Shown: positions 1 to 15,935 of the stretch, one piece after another
How positions within the stretch are numbered: the first letter of the stretch is position 1
How the letters are laid out: every line of letters starts with the position of its first letter
From: Pisciglobus halotolerans
GTDB lineage: Bacteria; Bacillota; Bacilli; Lactobacillales; Carnobacteriaceae
Assembly (NCBI RefSeq): GCF_900113675.1
Contig: NZ_FOQE01000009.1
Span: 1,016 to 61,479, forward strand
Reading direction: 5' to 3'
DNA length: 60,464 nt
Notes under the pieces: generated by a model
Told to the model about the DNA's origin: nothing
Databases searched by the model: none
Seen by the model: the letters and a program-made list of their open reading frames with translations, nothing else
Position numbers and translations under genes: made by a program

Positions 1-190
1 AAAACTTTCAACTTGTTCACAGGATAGGCTTCTATGAACAAGTTCAAAACATAAAACTTTCAACTCGTTCACAGGATAGACTTCTATAAACAAGTTCAGA
101 GCATAAAACTTTCAACTCGTTCACAGGATAGACTTCTATAAACAAGTTCAGAATGTAAAACCTGAAACTCGCTTACAGATTCAACTTTTG
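1..190. repeat. 52-bp tandem repeat array 1 (type A), cut by the window edge
   Basis: Three near-identical units begin at 1, 53 and 105, followed by a decayed fourth from 157. Each unit carries an inverted repeat; in the first it is perfect: AACTTGTTCA at 10-19 and TGAACAAGTT at 35-44, with a 15-nt loop. The rest of the unit is an AT-rich link ending in AAAACTTTC. The array probably continues upstream of the window. Its core (AACTTGTTCACAGGA, then TTCTATGA and CAAGTT) recurs in the array near 15.6 kb, so the two belong to one family. No reading frame is conserved through it. Confidence 0.9.
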
Positions 191-8378: not shown

Positions 8379-9227
8379 ATGAAAAAAACAACGATTTTTA
8401 AGTCTGTATTGGCAGTAGGCGCAACGTTATTACTAGGGGCATGCGGCAACAACGAAGCAAATGATAAAGTCGGAGAGGGCTCCTCAGCTGAAGAAACCGT
8501 CATCAAGATTGGGGCAAGCAACACACCTCATGCAGAGATTTTAGAATTTGCTAAACCCATTCTTGAAAAAGAAGGCATAGAACTCGATATTACAACTTAT
8601 AATGACTATGTGATCCCTAACGAAGCTTTGGCTGAAGGGGATATTGATGCCAACTACTTCCAGCATATTCCATTTTTTGAATCAGCAGTGGAAGAAAATA
8701 ACTACGACTTTGTTAATGCAGGGGCCATTCATTTGGAGCCAATCGGTATCTTCTCTAAAAAGTATAAGAGTCTAGACGAATTGCCAGATGGCGCTACAGT
8801 ACTGGTCAGCAGTAACACATCTGACTGGGGACGTATTATAAGCATTTTCCAAGAAGCAGGTTTAGTCAAAGTCAAAGAAGGTGTCAATTTGACGACAGCT
8901 ACTTTTGATGATATTGCTGAAAACCCAAAACATATCAAGTTTGAATATGAAAATGATCCAGCCTTGATGCCGACGCTTTACCAACAAGGCGAAGGAGATG
9001 CCGTGGCAATCAATGCCAACTTCGCGGTTGACCAAGACATCAACCCAGTAGAGGATTCTATTGCACTTGAGAGTGAAAGCTCCCCATATGCCAATATTGT
9101 CGCTGTGAAAACAGAAGATGCAGACAGTCCAGCCATTCAAAAACTGATCTCTGTTCTGAAATCAAAAGAAGTCCAAGATTATATCCGTGAAACTTGGAAT
9201 GGCGCTGTAGTACCTGTTACTGAATAA
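8379..9227 (+). CDS. metQ: Methionine-binding lipoprotein
   Basis: The 282-residue substrate-binding protein of the MetNPQ system, NlpA/MetQ family. The N-terminus is a lipoprotein signal (MKKTTIFKSVLAVGATLLL) with lipobox LGAC, so Cys23 or so is lipidated and the protein is anchored on the outside of the membrane. Family motifs IGASNTPHAEIL and NYFQHIPFFES are present. It follows metP by 39 bp with AGGGAGATAAGGA as binding site, and a terminator ends the operon. Confidence 0.95.
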   Translation: MKKTTIFKSVLAVGATLLLGACGNNEANDKVGEGSSAEETVIKIGASNTPHAEILEFAKPILEKEGIELDITTYNDYVIPNEALAEGDIDANYFQHIPFFESAVEENNYDFVNAGAIHLEPIGIFSKKYKSLDELPDGATVLVSSNTSDWGRIISIFQEAGLVKVKEGVNLTTATFDDIAENPKHIKFEYENDPALMPTLYQQGEGDAVAINANFAVDQDINPVEDSIALESESSPYANIVAVKTEDADSPAIQKLISVLKSKEVQDYIRETWNGAVVPVTE

Positions 9228-9234
9228 ACATAAA

Positions 9235-9266
9235 AAAGTACATTGGATTATTCCAGTGTGCTTTTT
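9235..9266 (+). terminator. Terminator of metNPQ
   Basis: AAAGTACATTGG (9235-9246) and CCAGTGTGCTTT (9253-9264), paired with several G-U pairs, then TTTTT. Confidence 0.8.
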
Positions 9267-9402
9267 ACTTGTTTAACCTTAAACAACCTTTGCTCAAAAG
9301 CCATTGCATTTTCTGAAAATAGAGCGTATGATAGGGAATCGGATAGTGCAGTAGTTAACTTTTGCTGTATCGGTTGAAGATAGAAGGAGGCTGACGATCA
9401 AT

Positions 9403-9591
9403 ATGTCCGTCAAACGTTTTGTCCAATTATTTTTATTTTATTTTGTTTCTATTTTAATCTCGCATCTTATTGTCCGACAATTCAGTATCGACTCCGTTCT
9501 ATTAAACATCCTACTGATCTCGGTCATCGGGTATATTATATTGGTTATGCCGCTCACCATTATGACTGTAAAAAAACAAAAAAAAGATTAA
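9403..9591 (+). CDS. Small two-helix membrane protein
   Basis: A 62-residue protein with two hydrophobic segments (about residues 6-24 and 31-52) and a basic C-terminus (KKQKKD). AAGGAGG lies upstream, though 12 bases from the ATG. It is preceded and followed by terminators, so it is monocistronic. I do not recognise the family and assign no function. Gene status rests on the binding site, the two clean helices and the terminator directly after it. Confidence 0.6.
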   Translation: MSVKRFVQLFLFYFVSILISHLIVRQFSIDSVLLNILLISVIGYIILVMPLTIMTVKKQKKD

Positions 9592-9601
9592 TCAATCAAT
9601 A

Positions 9602-9648
9602 AAGAAGACTGCTACTGCAAAGAAGGATTGCAAAGCAGTCTTCTTTTT
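9602..9648 (+). terminator. Terminator after the small membrane protein gene
   Basis: AAGAAGACTGCT (9602-9613) pairs perfectly with AGCAGTCTTCTT (9634-9645), with an inner TGCAA/TTGCA stem, then TTTTT. Nothing recognisable lies between here and 9868. Confidence 0.85.
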
Positions 9649-9868
9649 CTGAACAATGAAATGATTTTAAAGCTGCCCCTATTCTGGCAAGTGATGCCGT
9701 AGAAAGTTATTTTATCTGAATGAGTGAATATTTTTAAAGTAAAGAGAGAAAGAGGAACTAAGCTTTGCGGTGCTCGTTTTATGTGATCGAACATATAGCT
9801 CCAAAAATTTAGCTATTTTCTCACAAAATTTCTAGTGCTATTTGTCCAAGAAAAAGAAGTAGATAAAA

Positions 9869-9914
9869 AGACAACCTCTAGCCCTCCAGATAGCGGAGCT
9901 GAGGTTGTTTTTTT
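9869..9914 (-). terminator. Terminator of the nrd operon (works on both strands)
   Basis: ACAACCTCTAGC (9871-9882) pairs with GCTGAGGTTGT (9898-9908), with T-runs on both sides. It lies just past the nrdF stop. Confidence 0.75.
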
Positions 9915-9926
9915 AACATCTTATTC

Positions 9927-10901
9927 TTATACAGAAGGGGAATACATCCATTTTGTATAGTCATTATCATCCATTGATTCAACCATTCCTAGCAAGTAGC
10001 CATTTCCGACTTGTGAGAAGAAGTCATGGTTGGAAGTACCCGTAGAGATCCCATTCATAACGACTGGATCTACGTCGTCAGCTGTATCTGGGAACAAAGG
10101 ATCAAATCCTAAGTTTTGCAACGCTTTATTGGCATTATAACGTAGAAACACTTTTACGCGCTCTGTCCAACCAATTTCATCATACAAGTATTCCGTATAT
10201 TTTACTTCATTTTGATAGAGCTCAAACAAAAGAGTGTAAGCCCAATTTTTGAGATTTTCTTGTTCAGCTTCTGAAAGTTGGTTATAGCCAATTTGAAACT
10301 TGTAGCCGATATAAGTGCCGTGAACGGACTCGTCACGCAAAATCAATTTGATGATCTCTGCTACGTTTGGCAGTTTATTATTGCCCAAGTAATGTAAAGG
10401 AGCAAAGAAGCCAGAGTAGAAGAGGAAAGATTCTAGAAAAACACTTGCTACTTTGCGCTGCAAATCAGTACCGCTATGATAGATTTCGTTGATAGCAGCA
10501 GCTTTCTTTTGCAACATATCATTTGTATTGGTCCATTGAAAAATGTCATCAATTTCATTTTTGGTATTCAAAGTACTGAAAATAGCACTGTAACTTTTAG
10601 CGTGCATCGATTCCATGAATTGAATGTTGTTATATACAGCTTCTTCATGTTGAGTCCGAATCGATTCTTTTAAAGCTTGGATCCCATCTTGCGATTGCAA
10701 AGTATCCAACAGTGTCAAACCTCCGAATACTTTGCCCACCATATCTTTTTCATTTTTTGGCAGATTATACCAATCATCTAAGTCATTCGACAAAGGAATA
10801 CGTGTATCTGTCCAGAATTGTTCGACTAGTTTTTCCCATGTCAGCTTGTCGATCATATCTTCAATTTGATTCCAGTTTATCGCTTTATACTGTTCTGTCA
10901 T
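9927..10901 (-). CDS. nrdF: Class Ib ribonucleotide reductase small subunit
   Basis: The 324-residue radical-bearing beta subunit of the aerobic class Ib enzyme, with a di-iron or di-manganese centre. The helix YNNIQFMESMHAKSYSAIF (about residues 91-109) holds metal-ligand Glu and His and the radical Tyr; further ligands are in LESFLFYSGF and RDESVHGTYIG. The start has AAGGAGAAGCTT ahead. It is separated from nrdE by about 640 bp of repeats and hairpins, while nrdH-I-E overlap each other; this uneven spacing suggests separate control of nrdF, but no clear promoter of its own is visible. Confidence 0.95.
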   Translation of the reverse strand: MTEQYKAINWNQIEDMIDKLTWEKLVEQFWTDTRIPLSNDLDDWYNLPKNEKDMVGKVFGGLTLLDTLQSQDGIQALKESIRTQHEEAVYNNIQFMESMHAKSYSAIFSTLNTKNEIDDIFQWTNTNDMLQKKAAAINEIYHSGTDLQRKVASVFLESFLFYSGFFAPLHYLGNNKLPNVAEIIKLILRDESVHGTYIGYKFQIGYNQLSEAEQENLKNWAYTLLFELYQNEVKYTEYLYDEIGWTERVKVFLRYNANKALQNLGFDPLFPDTADDVDPVVMNGISTGTSNHDFFSQVGNGYLLGMVESMDDNDYTKWMYSPSV

Positions 10902-10950
10902 AAGCTTCTCCTTCTTTTCTTCATCGTGAATAATCCATGTAACGATTGTT

Positions 10951-11275
10951 CAATAAACGGTCTCTTATCGCAAACTCAAACTCATTTCAGCTACTGAGTG
11001 TGCAATAAACGAGCTCTTATCGCAAACTCAAACCCGTTTCAGCTACTGAGTGTGCAATAAACGGTCTCTTATCATACACTCAAACTCATTTCAACTACTG
11101 AGTGTGCAATAAACGGTCTCTTATCATACACTCAAACTCATTTCAACTACTGAGTGTGCAATAAACGAGCTCTTATCATATACTCAAACACATTTCAGCT
11201 GTTGAGTGTGCAATAAACGAGCTCTTATCACATACTCAAACACATTTCAGCTGTTGAGTGTGCAATAAACGTTTT
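10951..11275. repeat. 52-bp tandem repeat array 2 (type B) inside the nrd operon
   Basis: Six complete units begin at 10951, 11003, 11055, 11107, 11159 and 11211, and a seventh partial unit at 11263; the period is exactly 52 in every step. Each unit spans an imperfect palindrome with TGAGTGTG on one side and CATACACTCA or a variant on the other, about 36 nt in total, plus a 16-nt link. Units differ by scattered substitutions (for example GGTCTC against GAGCTC) and no variable spacers occur, so this is not a CRISPR array. It sits between nrdE and nrdF and would be carried on the operon mRNA. Confidence 0.92.
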
Positions 11276-11277
11276 TT

Positions 11278-11401
11278 CCCGCATCCTATTAGTTTAGCTG
11301 CGAAAGCCAGAGTCTTTGCAAAAAAGATAAGTTGTTTTGATGCGCGCTGCGCTGCTCTCTTCAACAACTTCCTATTTTTGCTGTGACTCTTGCAGGCTTT
11401 C
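11278..11401. repeat. Long hairpin element, copy 1 (nrdE-nrdF gap)
   Basis: An approximately 124-bp unit that opens with CGCATCCTATTAGTTTAGC. Its arms fold back: AAAGCC with GGCTTT, GAGTC with GACTC, GCAAAAA with TTTTTGC and AAGTTGTT with AACAACTT, around a GC-rich loop containing GATGCGCG. Copy 2 follows directly with different stem bases that still pair. Confidence 0.75.
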
Positions 11402-11530
11402 TCCGCATCCTAGTAGTTGAGCTGCGCGAGGTAGAGTCTCGGGTAAAATTCAAAAGTCGCTCGCATGCGCGGGATGCTCTGCGCCGCGCTTTTTCATTTT
11501 TCTGTCGTCTCTGTCGACCTCGCTTCGCAC
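11402..11530. repeat. Long hairpin element, copy 2
   Basis: It begins CGCATCCTAGTAGTTGAGC, 124 bp after the same motif in copy 1. The outer stem is CGAGGT with ACCTCG instead of AAAGCC with GGCTTT, so both sides changed together. TGCG and CGCA flank the stem in both copies. The loop is again GC-rich (ATGCGCGGGATGC). It ends a few bases after the nrdE stop, read on the minus strand. Confidence 0.75.
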
Positions 11531-11536
11531 ACTGTG

Positions 11537-13714
11537 TTAAATCGTGCAGCTTTCGCAGGCGTTTGAACCGATTTCGTCGGCGTTTTCGGTAAAGGTTCTA
11601 ACGTAGTAAATTGATTTGATGCCTTTTTGCCATGCATAGTGACGTAGGATGTTTAGATCGCGTGTAGTTTGTTTGTTGGTACGACCGTTCTTCCATTCGT
11701 ATAAACCTTCTGGGATTTCTGAGCGCATGAAGAGTGTTAAACTCATGCCTTGGTCCACGTGTTTTTGGGCTGCAGCGTAGATATCAATGACTTTCCGCAT
11801 ATCGGTATCATAAGCAGAAGTGTAGTACGGCAGCGTTTCGTTCGACAAATAAGGAGCCGGGAAGTAAGTTTTTCCGGTTTTCTTTTCTTGACGTTCTTCG
11901 ATCAAACGAGTGATTGGATGAATGCTGGCTGAAGTTTCGTTGACATAGCTGATTGAACCCGTTGGCGCAACAGCTAAGCGGTTTTGATGGTACAAACCAT
12001 GTGTCATAACAGAAGCTTTCAATTCTTTCCAATCGTCAGCAGTTGGCACATCGATGTCTTTAAAGAGTGCTTTGACTTTTTCGCTTTTGAAAGCCACATC
12101 AGATTCTGTATAGGTATCAAAGTAAGAACCATTTGCATAATCGGATTGTTCAAAGTTTTCAAAAGTTTGTTGGCGTTCGATGGCAATATTGTTGCTGGCT
12201 TTCAAGGTATAGAAGTTTAGCAGCATAAAGTAAAGATCTGTAAACTCAATAGATTCAGGTGAACCATAAGACATTTGGTTGAGAGCCAAATATGTGTGGA
12301 GACCCATAGCGCCTAAACCAATCGTATGGTATTTGTCGTTCCCGTTTTTAATAGAAGGAACCGCATCAATACTTGAATTGTCCGTAACATATGTCAACGC
12401 ACGGACCATTGCATCAACTGATTTTCCAAAGTCAGGCGTCTTCATTAAGTTAACGATATTGGTTGAACCCAAGTTACAGCTAATATCAGTTCCTAAATGT
12501 TCATAAGTTTGGTCATTGTTGATCATTGAAGGCTGTTGGATCTGCAGGATCTCGCTGCACAAGTTACTCATCACGATCGTACCGTCGATTGGATTCGCAC
12601 GATTGGCTGTATCAATATTGAGAACGTATGGATAGCCAGATTCTTGTTGCAGTTTAGAAATTTCATTTTCCAAGTCGCGTGCACGGATCTTGGATTTGCG
12701 AATTTCTTCGTTGTTGACCATATTATCGTATTCTTTTGTAATATCTACATAAGAGAAAGGTTCGCCGTAGATTCGTTCGACGTCATAAGGACTGAAGAGA
12801 TACATTTGTTCATCTTTAGCAGCCAATTCATAGAATTTGTCAGGCACAACTAGCCCAAGCGATAATGTTTTTACACGAACTTTTTCATCGGCATTTTCCT
12901 TTTTAGTAGAAAGGAAAGAAACGATATCTGGATGGAAAACGTTCAAGTAAACAGCTCCGGCACCGTTTCGTTGACCTAGTTGGTTTGAGTAGCTGAAGCT
13001 GTCTTCTAGTAACTTCATGACAGGCACGACACCGCTGGAAGCATTATCGATTTTTTTGATCGGATCTCCAGCTGCACGCAAATTGGACAAGTTAACACCG
13101 ACACCGCCGCCGATACGACTGAGCTGCAAAGCACTGTTGATCACACGACCAATGCTGTTCATATCATCCGTTGCTTGAATCAAGAAGCAAGAAACCAATT
13201 CGCCGCGACGTTTACGTCCAGCGTTCAAGAAAGTCGGTGTGGCTGGTTGGTAACGTTGATTGATAATCTCATCAGCTAATGTCCAAGCCAAGTCTTTATC
13301 CCCATTTGCCAAATAAAGGGCATTGAAAACGATCCGATCTTCAAAGCGCTCTAAGAAACGTTTGCCGTCATTGGTTTTCAACGCATACTGTGTATAAAAT
13401 TTATAGGCGGACATGAACGAACGAAAACGGAATTTACGATTGTACATTTCTTCAAACAAGCTCTTGATAAATGCGCGATCATACTTGTTGATAAATTCAG
13501 CTTCGATGTAGTCATTGTCGATTAAGTAATTGATTTTTTCATCCAGCGTATAGAAGAAGACGGTATTCGGATTGACATATTCCAGAAAATAAGCACGTAC
13601 TGCTTCACGATCTTTTTCTAAAGGAATCTTTCCATCTACAGGACGATTTAATTCATTGTTTAATTTGTAATAGGTAACCTCTTTTGGTTTGGTTGCTAAT
13701 TTAGGCTTATCCAA
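11537..13714 (-). CDS. nrdE: Class Ib ribonucleotide reductase large subunit
   Basis: The 725-residue catalytic subunit that reduces ribonucleoside diphosphates. Seen: the substrate-site region RRGELVSCFLIQ with one active-site Cys, MSNLCSEIL with the radical Cys, the glycine-rich GGGVGVNLSNLRAAG and the C-terminal redox pair CESC four residues from the end, which exchanges electrons with NrdH. No ATP-cone is present, as expected for class Ib. The start is a TTG that overlaps the end of nrdI by 8 bp. Confidence 0.96.
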   Translation of the reverse strand: MDKPKLATKPKEVTYYKLNNELNRPVDGKIPLEKDREAVRAYFLEYVNPNTVFFYTLDEKINYLIDNDYIEAEFINKYDRAFIKSLFEEMYNRKFRFRSFMSAYKFYTQYALKTNDGKRFLERFEDRIVFNALYLANGDKDLAWTLADEIINQRYQPATPTFLNAGRKRRGELVSCFLIQATDDMNSIGRVINSALQLSRIGGGVGVNLSNLRAAGDPIKKIDNASSGVVPVMKLLEDSFSYSNQLGQRNGAGAVYLNVFHPDIVSFLSTKKENADEKVRVKTLSLGLVVPDKFYELAAKDEQMYLFSPYDVERIYGEPFSYVDITKEYDNMVNNEEIRKSKIRARDLENEISKLQQESGYPYVLNIDTANRANPIDGTIVMSNLCSEILQIQQPSMINNDQTYEHLGTDISCNLGSTNIVNLMKTPDFGKSVDAMVRALTYVTDNSSIDAVPSIKNGNDKYHTIGLGAMGLHTYLALNQMSYGSPESIEFTDLYFMLLNFYTLKASNNIAIERQQTFENFEQSDYANGSYFDTYTESDVAFKSEKVKALFKDIDVPTADDWKELKASVMTHGLYHQNRLAVAPTGSISYVNETSASIHPITRLIEERQEKKTGKTYFPAPYLSNETLPYYTSAYDTDMRKVIDIYAAAQKHVDQGMSLTLFMRSEIPEGLYEWKNGRTNKQTTRDLNILRHYAWQKGIKSIYYVRTFTENADEIGSNACESCTI

Positions 13715-14072
13715 GGTCCTTCACCGCTTTCTTTAATTTTTCGACATCTGCTTCGTTTCCTTGGAATTCAAAGGCATGAAGCAGGGGAACATTATAGTCG
13801 TGTGCTAAGTCTTTTGCTGTAAAGACGAACAGTTTGCCGAAGTTCAAGTTACCGCCGCCCGCGACACCCTTGAAATAATGCAAATTATTGTCCGTTTCAA
13901 TGAAATCATTCAAGATTTCGGTAGCTTCCTTTTCATAAGTTGGGGTCACAATAATAAAAGGTTCTTCCATACTGATAAATGGATTTGTCGGAGATAACTC
14001 CAACAAATCCATATCGAGTTTTTTGACGAATTTTCTTGTTTGACCCGTTAATGAGAGATAAACGACTTTCAT
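13707..14072 (-). CDS. nrdI: Flavodoxin-like NrdI
   Basis: A 121-residue flavodoxin that activates the NrdF metal centre, supplying superoxide for dimanganese cofactor assembly in this class. The FMN phosphate loop is SLTGQT (about 7-12); the family TPTYEKEATEILNDF and the glycine-rich GVAGGGNLNFG loop near the flavin are present. It overlaps nrdH by 4 bp (ATGA) and nrdE by 8 bp. Confidence 0.94.
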   Translation of the reverse strand: MKVVYLSLTGQTRKFVKKLDMDLLELSPTNPFISMEEPFIIVTPTYEKEATEILNDFIETDNNLHYFKGVAGGGNLNFGKLFVFTAKDLAHDYNVPLLHAFEFQGNEADVEKLKKAVKDLG

Positions 14073-14302
14073 GCCAGCTGATCTAATAAGTCAGGGCGGA
14101 AACCGTTAAAAGCGTCTAGACCTTCTGCTAAAATGACAGGAACTGATGAAAAACCTAATTCCTGAACTTCTTCTAAAGCTTCTTGAGAGGCCATGATATC
14201 TTTTGATTCGTAAGCGATTCCTTTATCATCCAAGTATTTTTTTGTAAAGTTACACTGCATGCAATTTGGTTTTGAGTAAACCACAACTGATTTAGTCGCC
14301 AT
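14069..14302 (-). CDS. nrdH: Glutaredoxin-like NrdH redoxin
   Basis: A 77-residue thioredoxin-fold electron donor for class Ib ribonucleotide reductase. The redox motif is CMQC (Cys14, Cys17); SSVPVI and GFRPDLL are the family cis-Pro and C-terminal motifs. AAGGAG lies at good distance before the ATG. It is the first gene of nrdHIE(F), downstream of NrdR-type boxes. Confidence 0.95.
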   Translation of the reverse strand: MATKSVVVYSKPNCMQCNFTKKYLDDKGIAYESKDIMASQEALEEVQELGFSSVPVILAEGLDAFNGFRPDLLDQLA

Positions 14303-14443
14303 GACGCATTCTCCTTTTTCTATCCATAATTCTGAGAGCTGTTAAATGAATGGATAACACCGTTCCATCAAAAAAACAGCTTCCTTTGACACTCTTCATT
14401 CTACACATAAACAGGACCCTTTTCAATCTGTAGATACCATATT

Positions 14444-14490
14444 TAGTTAATTATTTGGTTCACAATCGTTTTTAATACTATATATTGTGT
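14444..14490 (-). promoter_or_regulatory. NrdR boxes upstream of nrdHIEF
   Basis: ATACTATATATTGTGT (14475-14490) matches the NrdR box (ACACTATATATTGTGT) at 15 of 16 positions. A weak second box lies exactly 31 bp away (TAGTTAATTATTTGGT, 14444-14459; 8 of 16), the usual NrdR spacing. A possible minus-strand -35 (TTGTGA, 14460-14465) overlaps the region. NrdR repression in response to ATP/dATP is inferred from the box. Confidence 0.75.
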
Positions 14491-14512
14491 TTCTATGAAA
14501 ACGCAATAAAGC

Positions 14513-14541
14513 AGCCGCTATCAGTTTGTAAGCGGCTTTTT
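14513..14541 (+). terminator. Terminator-like hairpin with no clear gene
   Basis: AGCCGCT (14513-14519) pairs with AGCGGCT (14531-14537), followed by TTTTT. On the plus strand no gene precedes it; only a five-codon frame (MKTQ, stop) lies between the NrdR box and the hairpin. Confidence 0.5.
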
Positions 14542-14609
14542 CATCTTGCTTTATGAAAATAAAATATAAAAAAACAACAAGCTTGTTCTATTTTAGCTTT
14601 AAACCAAAA

Positions 14610-14656
14610 AAACATCAATAACGTTCCTCACAAAAAGAAAAGTTACTGATGTTTCT
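14610..14656 (-). terminator. Terminator of the amidotransferase gene
   Basis: On the minus strand, AAACATCAGTAAC and GTTATTGATGTTT form the stem and are followed by TTTTTT. It lies 26 bp past the stop. Confidence 0.75.
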
Positions 14657-14681
14657 TTTATATTTTTTTGAGCTTTGGATG

Positions 14682-15425
14682 CTATAAAGCTGGCGCAATC
14701 GATTTTTTCACTCGACTGACAAATTCCTTGAATAATATTTGCATTTTTTCTTCATTCGGTGCCATCAACTCGGGGTGCCATTGGACCGCTACAATACTGG
14801 TATCAGGGTCTTTAGCTTCATAGGCTTCGATCAGATTATCCTTACTCCATGCGACTGCTTTGAAAGGATCAGCCAACTGCTTCACGGCTTGATGATGATA
14901 AGAATTAACAACGTAAGTCTCGCCGTAAATCGCTCCTAAACGACTGCTGGGATCAATATCGATTGTATGGGCGGCTGTGCCTGAAAAAATGCGTTGCACA
15001 TGCTGGACGGTAAAATCCGGATTGTCCATCACATCTTGGTAAAGCGTGCCTCCATATGCTACATTCAATAACTGCATACCGCGACAAACAGCTAGGATCG
15101 GTTTCTCTTTTTTGACGGCTTCTTTGATCAAGGCAATTTCAAATAAGTCTCTCTCAGGATTGATCGCACCTAATTTTAATCCCGGTTCTTCTCCGTAAAG
15201 CAAAGGTGAGACATCTTGTCCGCCAGCCAGCAGCAAGCCATCGATCCGATCGATATACTCTTCAGCCATTGAAGGGTCGTTGATAGGAAGAATCACTGGC
15301 AAGCCCCATGCTGCTTGGATGCCTGCAATAAAACCTTGTGGCGTGTAGGTTATTGGGAGACCTTGATATTCAGGGGAAAGATGGGTCATTTGGTTTCCAG
15401 GAATGCCGATAATGGGTTGTGTCAT
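14682..15425 (-). CDS. Class I glutamine amidotransferase-like hydrolase (peptidase C26, PuuD-like)
   Basis: A 247-residue single-domain hydrolase of the gamma-glutamyl-GABA hydrolase type. The catalytic triad is visible: nucleophile Cys114 in AVCRGMQLLN and His217/Glu219 in VQWHPE. The oxyanion region LLLAGGQDV is near 65-72. It probably cleaves gamma-glutamyl amides; the exact substrate is not evident because no put/puu pathway genes lie nearby. AAGGAG precedes the ATG. It is monocistronic, transcribed away from suf. Confidence 0.85.
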   Translation of the reverse strand: MTQPIIGIPGNQMTHLSPEYQGLPITYTPQGFIAGIQAAWGLPVILPINDPSMAEEYIDRIDGLLLAGGQDVSPLLYGEEPGLKLGAINPERDLFEIALIKEAVKKEKPILAVCRGMQLLNVAYGGTLYQDVMDNPDFTVQHVQRIFSGTAAHTIDIDPSSRLGAIYGETYVVNSYHHQAVKQLADPFKAVAWSKDNLIEAYEAKDPDTSIVAVQWHPELMAPNEEKMQILFKEFVSRVKKSIAPAL

Positions 15426-15566
15426 CTTGTTTCTCCTTTCAGTCTATAAAGGTACAAATTAGTGATAAACATATGCATAAACGAATCGCTTCTTTTTTAG
15501 TTTACCACAAAAACCGTTCAGCAAAGAAATCATAAATGTATCTGTTATTGTCAATCTAAGATATAT

Positions 15567-15775
15567 ATGACCAAGTTACCGCAAGTTTTGTCTCAACTTG
15601 TTCGCAGGAGTCTGTTCAATGACCAAGTTACCGCAAGTTTTGACTCGACTTGTTCACAGGAATCTGTTCTATGACCAAGTTACCGCAAGTTTTGTCTCAA
15701 CTTGTTCACAGGAGCCTGTTCTATGACCAAGTTACCGCATGTGTTGTTTCGACTTCATGCAAATGTTCCCAACAA
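15567..15775. repeat. 52-bp tandem repeat array 3 (type A)
   Basis: Units begin at 15567, 15619, 15671 and 15723 (the last decaying), an exact 52-bp period. The core AACTTGTTCACAGGA, then GTTCTATGACCAAGTT, is the same as in array 1, with the inverted repeat AACTTG/CAAGTT; the link (ACCGCAAGTTTTG) differs from array 1. It lies between the divergent amidotransferase and suf genes, upstream of the suf promoter. Confidence 0.92.
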
Positions 15776-15843
15776 TCGCAACTGAATAAAAGAAGCAGCA
15801 AAAATAGCGGAAAAGACGCTAGATAAAGAATGCTTGTTACAGT

Positions 15844-15872
15844 TTGCACATTAGTTAGATATGGTCTAAAAT
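15844..15872 (+). promoter_or_regulatory. Promoter of the suf operon
   Basis: TTGCAC (15844-15849), 17 bp, TAAAAT (15867-15872), 64 bp before the sufC start. Confidence 0.7.
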
Positions 15873-15935
15873 AAGGGCAAGACAACGCTCTCGTTTAAGG
15901 AGGGCAAGAAGAAAATAAGAGAAGAGGGTCAAAAA

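Follow-up and report, generated by a model that had tools for sequence, protein, structure and literature searches.

In Escherichia coli, REPs that lie less than 16 nt from a stop codon are reported to slow or stall the ribosome, reduce the output of the upstream gene and lead to cleavage and rescue, and the covered part of this account includes the nrdAB transcript among the stop-adjacent cases (PMC12306157). REPs measure 20-40 bp, and their main type is GTAG-tagged and often accompanied by a RAYT transposase, as the covered part of a second account describes them; the same source names the EFAR elements of Enterococci (PMC3733652). In Streptococcus pneumoniae, BOX is modular and SPRITE is enriched near gene 3' ends, while BOX, RUP and SPRITE are leading-strand in about 61-63% of cases, mirroring the coding bias, and are almost absent from most other streptococci (PMC3049150). 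The dispersed intergenic repeats bcr1-bcr18 of Bacillus cereus lie within an mRNA in about 40-51% of cases, and co-transcribed bcr3 correlates with mRNA half-life, in numbers that the authors call small (PMC3446304). STAR elements of Staphylococcus are interspersed intergenic direct repeats (PMC3532100), TAACTGA repeats mostly stand before start codons (PMC4679880), and the nearest kinds also include stem-loop families of 40 genomes (PMC2267715) and prokaryotic MITEs (PMC10969869). All of these systems are taken here as the covered parts of their descriptions present them. EFAR elements are modular palindromic repeats of variable assembly. The nrdAB operon reportedly served as a model for Liang, Rudd and Deutscher in 2015, and both trans-translation and relief under stress are said to have been found.

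The locus compared with these systems lies in a window of 60,464 nucleotides, the whole stretch of Pisciglobus halotolerans DNA that was analysed (Table 1). The nrdH, nrdI and nrdE genes overlap one another on the minus strand, and the distance from nrdE to nrdF (10902-11536), put at about 635 bp in the earlier note, is exactly 635 bp. The 52-bp hairpin repeats read there as six to seven copies form an array of 6.2 copies (92% matches, TRF score 468) with a start-to-start spacing of 52 throughout. The two ‘124-bp hairpins’ of the same reading are indeed two units, and the gap contains two direct copies spaced 124 bp apart (76% identity over 51 nt) that are parts of both; the units themselves measure 120 and 122 nt, are different types of one family and are not copies of each other. 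Unit 2 begins 2 nt beyond unit 1 in the gene direction. The head of unit 1 is partly degenerate (AGTGTGCGAAG), so that its outermost pairs are weakened. Folded as RNA, the entire gap reaches -196.6 kcal/mol, versus -169.8 ± 5.9 kcal/mol in 20 dinucleotide shuffles (z -4.6); the single pieces score z -2.5 and -3.6 for the two hairpin units and z -3.1 for 104 nt of the 52-bp array.

Table 1. Features of the nrd locus, further period-52 arrays of the window, and streptococcal nrdE-nrdF gaps used for comparison (L coordinates are those of the respective locus).
Feature	Position	Strand	Basis and remarks
nrdH	14069..14302	-	ORF list; name from earlier note and context
nrdI	13707..14072	-	ORF list; name from earlier note and context
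nrdE	11537..13714	-	ORF list; stop TAA at 11537-11539; relatives by tblastn
nrdF	9927..10901	-	ORF list; 88-89% identity to Desemzia and C. jeotgali NrdF
Best promoter-like site upstream of nrdH	14398..14426	-	10 of 12, spacing 17; consensus match only
Family A unit 1, type T1, 120 nt	11414..11533	-	3 nt past nrdE stop; model R3, 139 bits
Family A unit 2, type T2, 122 nt	11290..11411	-	core AAAATAGGAA...TTATCTTTTTTGC; model R1, 143 bits
Truncated head of third family A unit, array end	11278..11287	-	read from sequence
Family B array, six 52-bp units and a fraction	10947..11271		tandem-repeat analysis
Shine-Dalgarno AAGGAG of nrdF	10908..10913	-	read from sequence
Other period-52 (family B) array, different sequence subfamily	1..161		tandem-repeat analysis
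Other period-52 (family B) array, different sequence subfamily	15566..15755		tandem-repeat analysis
Streptococcal nrdE-nrdF gap	L027 5465-6001		
Streptococcal nrdE-nrdF gap	L031 5225-6001		
Streptococcal nrdE-nrdF gap	L051 5063-6001		

The repeats in the gap are two independent families, A (the hairpin units) and B (the 52-bp array), both dispersed through the genome and neither specific to nrd; a search with the gap sequence gives 73 matches in the 2.44-Mb genome, counting the gap itself. In this genome, the family A unit is 120-123 nt long, with the head AGGATGYGGAG, the tail CGCARCTCAACTA and several internal types (T1-T4). Full-length units have 44-54% GC and are not AT-rich. Units are joined head to tail into mosaics such as T1-T2, T1-T3-T2 and T3-T3-T1-T2, and in 23 of 26 arrays a truncated head follows the last full unit. 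The definition of the GTAG-type REP, a 20-40 bp palindrome with a GTAG end, does not describe these units: in contrast to that type as its available description gives it, they form arrays of 120-123 nt mosaic units that are nearly always sense and come without a Y1 transposase. The RAYT/Y1 transposase domain PF01797 has 0 matches in the own genome and is found in 5 of 14 control genomes. BOX, RUP and SPRITE, by their published description, resemble family A as intergenic hairpin repeats of a Lactobacillales genome. A relation to the EFAR elements of Enterococci, which are modular repeats of variable assembly too, could exist.

Several smaller features accompany these arrays. A further recurring module (GTTATCGGAAGCACTGTTGCCGTTCCGGCAA...CGCAAGAGTCATGACA) follows several of them (L109, L112, L123). 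Small ORFs inside the units, compared by eye only, have frames that are short or unrelated between types, and were dropped as candidates. The idea that the truncated last unit is copied from its own array gave a mixed result, with the same array nearer in 8 cases, another array nearer in 11 and a tie in 4. Contigs C42, C40, C84 and C88 end in family A arrays or within about 125 bp of them, so array lengths may be underestimated.

The position of family A follows the stop codon. In 826 kb of own sequence there are 35 arrays, 3 of which lie at a contig or stretch edge without an upstream ORF. For 26 of the 32 testable arrays, the start falls at -14 to +11 nt relative to the stop of a same-strand ORF with a length of 60 aa or more, genes being called by a simple ORF rule rather than a gene finder. 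The same holds for 50 of 1500 intergenic positions drawn at random with a random strand. The array behind nrdE starts at +3. Thirty of the 32 run in the sense of the closest ORF upstream, and two do not. The six that miss the stop are L189, L256, L258, L268, L269 (first array) and L270. Judged by eye, the array of L256 comes after a terminator-like hairpin and that of L189 after an earlier degenerate head. A hairpin within 15 nt of the stop, the distance that matters for E. coli REPs, is likewise present in 26 of the 32. As far as the REP account was covered, the two systems share hairpin repeats directly behind the stops of many genes, a ribonucleotide reductase operon included, and differ in which operon this is (nrdAB in E. 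coli, nrdHIEF here). The bcr1-bcr18 repeats are dispersed and intergenic like families A and B, and the covered part of their description gives no stop-codon rule (PMC3446304).

The genes upstream of the arrays are ordinary genes. Twenty-two upstream proteins were scanned, 4 of them without a match at 1e-20, and the products include glutathione reductase, a diacylglycerol kinase, a GH1 glycosidase, a UbiB-like and a DegV protein, PepF, PTS IIC, an amidase, LeuS, YchF, GuaB, RpoB, UvrA, PTS IID, SmpB, MnmE and PstA. The flanking genes are convergent in 8 cases, co-directional in 19, divergent in 0 and at an edge in 8. Between co-directional genes, arrays lie in rpoB-rpoC (two T1 units), pstA-pstB and nrdE-nrdF, with a partial unit at mnmE-mnmG. 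Each of these four pairs normally belongs to one operon, and rpoB-rpoC is expected to be co-transcribed. The gene of the trans-translation factor SmpB has its array 4 nt past the stop (L117 2-291, the same as L272), and the contig ends inside this array.

In the window, the GC skew is +0.078 and genes lie mostly on the plus strand, so the nrd genes are taken as lagging-strand. Local skew places 6 of the 35 own arrays on the lagging strand, the one at nrd among them, and 4 of these 6 still stand directly behind a sense stop; the orientation of family A follows the gene. A hairpin element that acts in single-stranded DNA and depends on the replication strand was suggested by the relatives with large chromosome contigs (G004-G007, G009, G010, G012-G014), in which all family A arrays among the matches listed are leading-strand, but the own lagging-strand arrays weaken such a rule to the point where it is scarcely credible. 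In the same relatives, again among the matches listed, arrays lie on the replichore opposite to the dnaA direction, except at G004 2263531-2263769, and shared ancestral sites may explain the pattern.

An independent nrdF promoter or a terminator after nrdE, by which the earlier note would have recognized two separate transcription units, was looked for by consensus scan, and the minus strand of 10902-11536 has no promoter-like and no terminator-like site. An intrinsic terminator, a GC-rich stem with a T-run, is thus absent from this strand of the gap; the one terminator-like site lies on the plus strand only (11467-11484). With a co-directional nrdHIEF run, no minus-strand signals in the gap and a Shine-Dalgarno sequence of its own for nrdF, transcription through the structured spacer is the simplest reading. 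The structured, transcribed spacer proposed earlier is supported by gene direction, folds and missing minus-strand signals, as well as by the presence of the same hairpin family between rpoB and rpoC, but the repeats that compose it are genome-wide and not nrd-specific. The T2 units, in which an A-run precedes and a T-run follows an AU-rich stem, could point to a terminator or attenuator between nrdE and nrdF. This is very unlikely: besides the empty minus strand, the T-run of T2 is itself paired in the consensus fold, T1, T3 and T4 units have no such run, and the arrays in rpoB-rpoC and pstA-pstB and the partial one at mnmE-mnmG make strong termination improbable. An attenuator specific to nrd is rejected, both repeats being dispersed and the rpoB-rpoC site speaking against strong termination.

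The fold of family A appears to be conserved. RNAalifold on three type alignments predicts 40, 33 and 34 pairs, with compensatory double changes in 19, 5 and 16 of them. In an order-wide alignment of 64 matches (59 distinct rows), 92.7% of cells are paired versus 66.2% with shuffled partners and 34-52% with slid ones, and double changes occur at 38 of 40 pairs; this alignment was fitted to the structure, which favours pairing, and includes tandem copies of one array and one wrong-strand match. Within the unit, head and tail co-vary, ATGCGG occurring with CGCAGCTC and ATGTGG with CGCAACTC. The pairing of family A is, at the level of sequence comparison, supported by compensatory changes across Lactobacillales. 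Set against MITE terminal repeats, the pairing of head and tail is imperfect and has a bulge, the genus being represented by one genome in the set. Rfam returned 6 matches for window positions 9200-15900 and 13 further loci, each below the gathering score; one of them, mir-1179, falls on the unit of L009.

The positional rule extends to relatives. Model R1 finds a family A unit in 16 of the 18 genomes of the family, own included, and 15 of 18 family loci have their array start inside the same range of -14 to +11 nt around a sense stop, with one more at -23. This position test took 31 arrays (18 from the family, 13 from outside it). Left out were L222-L225, L227, L230, L231, L233-L236, L239, L242 and L247, mostly second hits in the same genome or region, and L222 and L223 among these have a different layout. 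A second set of 21 arrays, collected from two Desemzia genomes and G007 with the single-type model R1, has 12 arrays at a stop by the same measure; since R1 sees mainly one type, several of the misses show, by eye, the tail or head of an earlier unit at the stop. Four arrays of this set, all from G007, stand behind orthologues of own array-bearing genes (mnmE 82%, rpoB 88%, glutathione reductase 78%, permease 58%), and a site named pcrA-ligA by eye has an array in several species of two genera. At L211, L213 and L221 the stop and the last residues of the upstream gene (pcrA by eye) lie inside the hairpin unit, so that the element changed the C-terminus.

Beyond the family, matches at E 1e-4 occur in 64 of 246 sampled genomes of the order, own family included. 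Among 20 named genomes, matches occur in 8, with 19 and 4 in two Desemzia, 3 in C. jeotgali, 9 in S. cuniculi, 6 in one S. suis, 64 in S. acidominimus and weak ones in Alkalibacterium gilvum (2) and Lentilactobacillus kisonensis (4). The other 12, seven Enterococcus species, Marinilactibacillus psychrotolerans, Vaginisenegalia massiliensis, an Aerococcus, Granulicatella seriolae and Weissella minor, have none. Outside the family, likeness is mainly confined to the core AAAATAGGAAA...TTTATCTTTTT and the unit ends are different, so it does not establish common descent of the whole unit. Of the 13 outside loci, six follow a sense stop; in four, the unit starts within 0-5 nt of an antisense start codon. 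At these latter loci (L238, L249, L250 and L251, near 1501, from other families of the same order) the unit head stands at the antisense start, a Shine-Dalgarno sequence is not visible and the antisense genes are parC-like or deoD-like by eye.

The nrdE-nrdF gap itself is occupied by units in 3 of the 18 family genomes under model R1, the own and two Desemzia. In D. incerta it measures 226 bp and holds one unit starting +3 from the stop; in Desemzia sp. RIT 804 it measures 580 bp and holds four units starting at -1. In the other 15 genomes no R1 unit is found there at E 0.1, and the gap is 15-18 bp in 11, 105-106 bp in 3 and 227 bp in 1. The 11 genomes with the shortest gap span two genera, one of them that of C. 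jeotgali, and the three with 105-106 bp belong to another genus. A tie of the repeats to nrd control, as proposed in the earlier note, keeps in its favour that an array stands inside the nrdHIEF run; against it stand the genome-wide spread of both families and the 15 genomes that do without the unit.

The hairpin 3 nt behind the nrdE stop, which the earlier note did not mention, is the feature that best predicts a mechanism. We infer an effect on the terminating ribosome from how close the hairpin lies to the stop, from the sense bias and from the conservation of the fold. The hairpin would meet the ribosome as it terminates on nrdE and, as with E. coli REPs less than 16 nt from a stop, slow or stall it there. 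Stalling would lower the output of nrdE and promote cleavage and rescue, and the fold of the array may also block 3' exonucleases. The nrdF gene would be translated independently from its own AAGGAG, with the result that NrdE would fall relative to NrdF, and the NrdE:NrdF ratio could become responsive to helicase activity or stress. Such a REP-like action of family A at nrd is the preferred reading, tentatively held at a probability of about 0.4. In its favour are the stop rule in the own genome and in relatives, the lagging-strand arrays that keep it, the conserved pairing, the sites shared with G007, the Desemzia units behind nrdE, the sites inside operons and the REP precedent. Against it weigh the six own arrays away from a stop and the two that are not sense, the lower share of 12 in 21 in the second set of relatives, the loci outside the family with their antisense starts, the copy number, mosaics and truncated last units that resemble mobile or slippage-driven repeats, the 15 family genomes with no unit in this gap, and the degenerate head of unit 1.

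A different role of the same hairpins, in line with the processing or stabilization proposed in the earlier note, is rather improbable; here they would shield the upstream message (nrdHIE) against 3' exonucleases or offer a site for cleavage, and nrdE and nrdF mRNA would differ in amount. The strong folds and the placement at gene 3' ends, also between co-directional genes, would suit processing or stabilization, and the correlation of bcr3 with mRNA half-life offers a precedent in the covered part of its description (PMC3446304), but a stabilizer need not sit within 15 nt of the stop, and the precise distance is left unexplained.

The strongest competitor of a REP-like action, somewhat less probable than that action itself, is a non-functional and mobile, or formerly mobile, modular hairpin of which mainly the copies behind stops survive, with nrd as a tolerated site. 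Such an element could enter at a TA- or stop-like junction or multiply there head to tail, and the unit tail ...CAACTA resembles a gene end. Spread by mobility or slippage would suit the many dispersed copies, the tandem mosaics of different unit types joined at a similar junction and the truncated last units. Tolerance alone, on the other hand, predicts neither a start within about 14 nt of the stop nor the sense bias, and the order-wide covariation and the sites shared with another genus suggest long maintenance. Family A has no match on plasmids or phages. Three types of mobility enzyme were covered in the own genome: besides the missing Y1 transposase there is no reverse transcriptase (RVT_1), and the integron integrase model TIGR02249, whose enzyme would be expected alongside attC sites, gives 12 matches with 0 over the cut-off, matches below the cut-off being found in 14 of 14 control genomes also.

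If the stop rule reflects insertion, a repeat family would find gene ends without the help of a REP-type transposase. If it reflects function, tens of genes, including rpoB, leuS, uvrA, guaB, smpB and nrdE, would have a built-in hairpin at termination, and the hairpin effect, so far argued from E. coli REPs, would become testable in an unrelated lineage and sequence. The widest proposal, an undescribed, order-wide mRNA element that acts on translation termination and is kept behind the stops of tens of genes, with stop-adjacent control of ribonucleotide reductase arising independently in E. coli nrdAB and in nrdEF of this lineage, is on balance unlikely. As far as the accounts of BOX/RUP/SPRITE, REP, stem-loop, bcr and MITE repeats were covered, none describes stop-adjacent, sense, mosaic 120-nt hairpins of this order. 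A literature search, covering top-ranked papers with subscription journals mostly outside its coverage, found no description of family A, and a search by the letters of the core motif gave no title on such repeats among the matches listed.

Family B consists of hairpin arrays with a 52-bp period in several sequence subfamilies. Eighteen arrays lie in 453 kb made up of the large contig C41, the greater part of C43, 40 kb of C46 and the window, and 36 lie in the 826 kb, a sample enlarged by stretches chosen for family A. Five tandem arrays with a period of at least 30 bp in the 826 kb do not have period 52 or a multiple of it, and four of those five are family A. The flanks are convergent in 10 cases, co-directional in 15, divergent in 8 and at an edge in 3 (convergent versus background, p = 0.056). 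STAR elements, as partly described, are interspersed intergenic direct repeats like family B, which differs in its 52-bp period maintained over several subfamilies. One subfamily pattern matches the own genome 13 times and 17 relatives not at all, and the sampled relatives have arrays of about 51 bp with different sequence; the family B array at nrd is lineage-specific.

The streptococcal nrdE-nrdF gap is variable too, with a small extra ORF in S. cuniculi, apparently decayed remains of this ORF in Streptococcus sp. LYSM12 and, in one S. suis, other repeats that fill 937 bp. Two Alkalibacterium genomes (L016 7044-7320, L017 9900-10202) and G014 of the same family (L298 14303-15351, L299 7098-7295) each have tandem arrays of their own, with a period of about 51 bp. 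At L298, one such array adjoins family A units, and the two succeed each other as they do at nrd.
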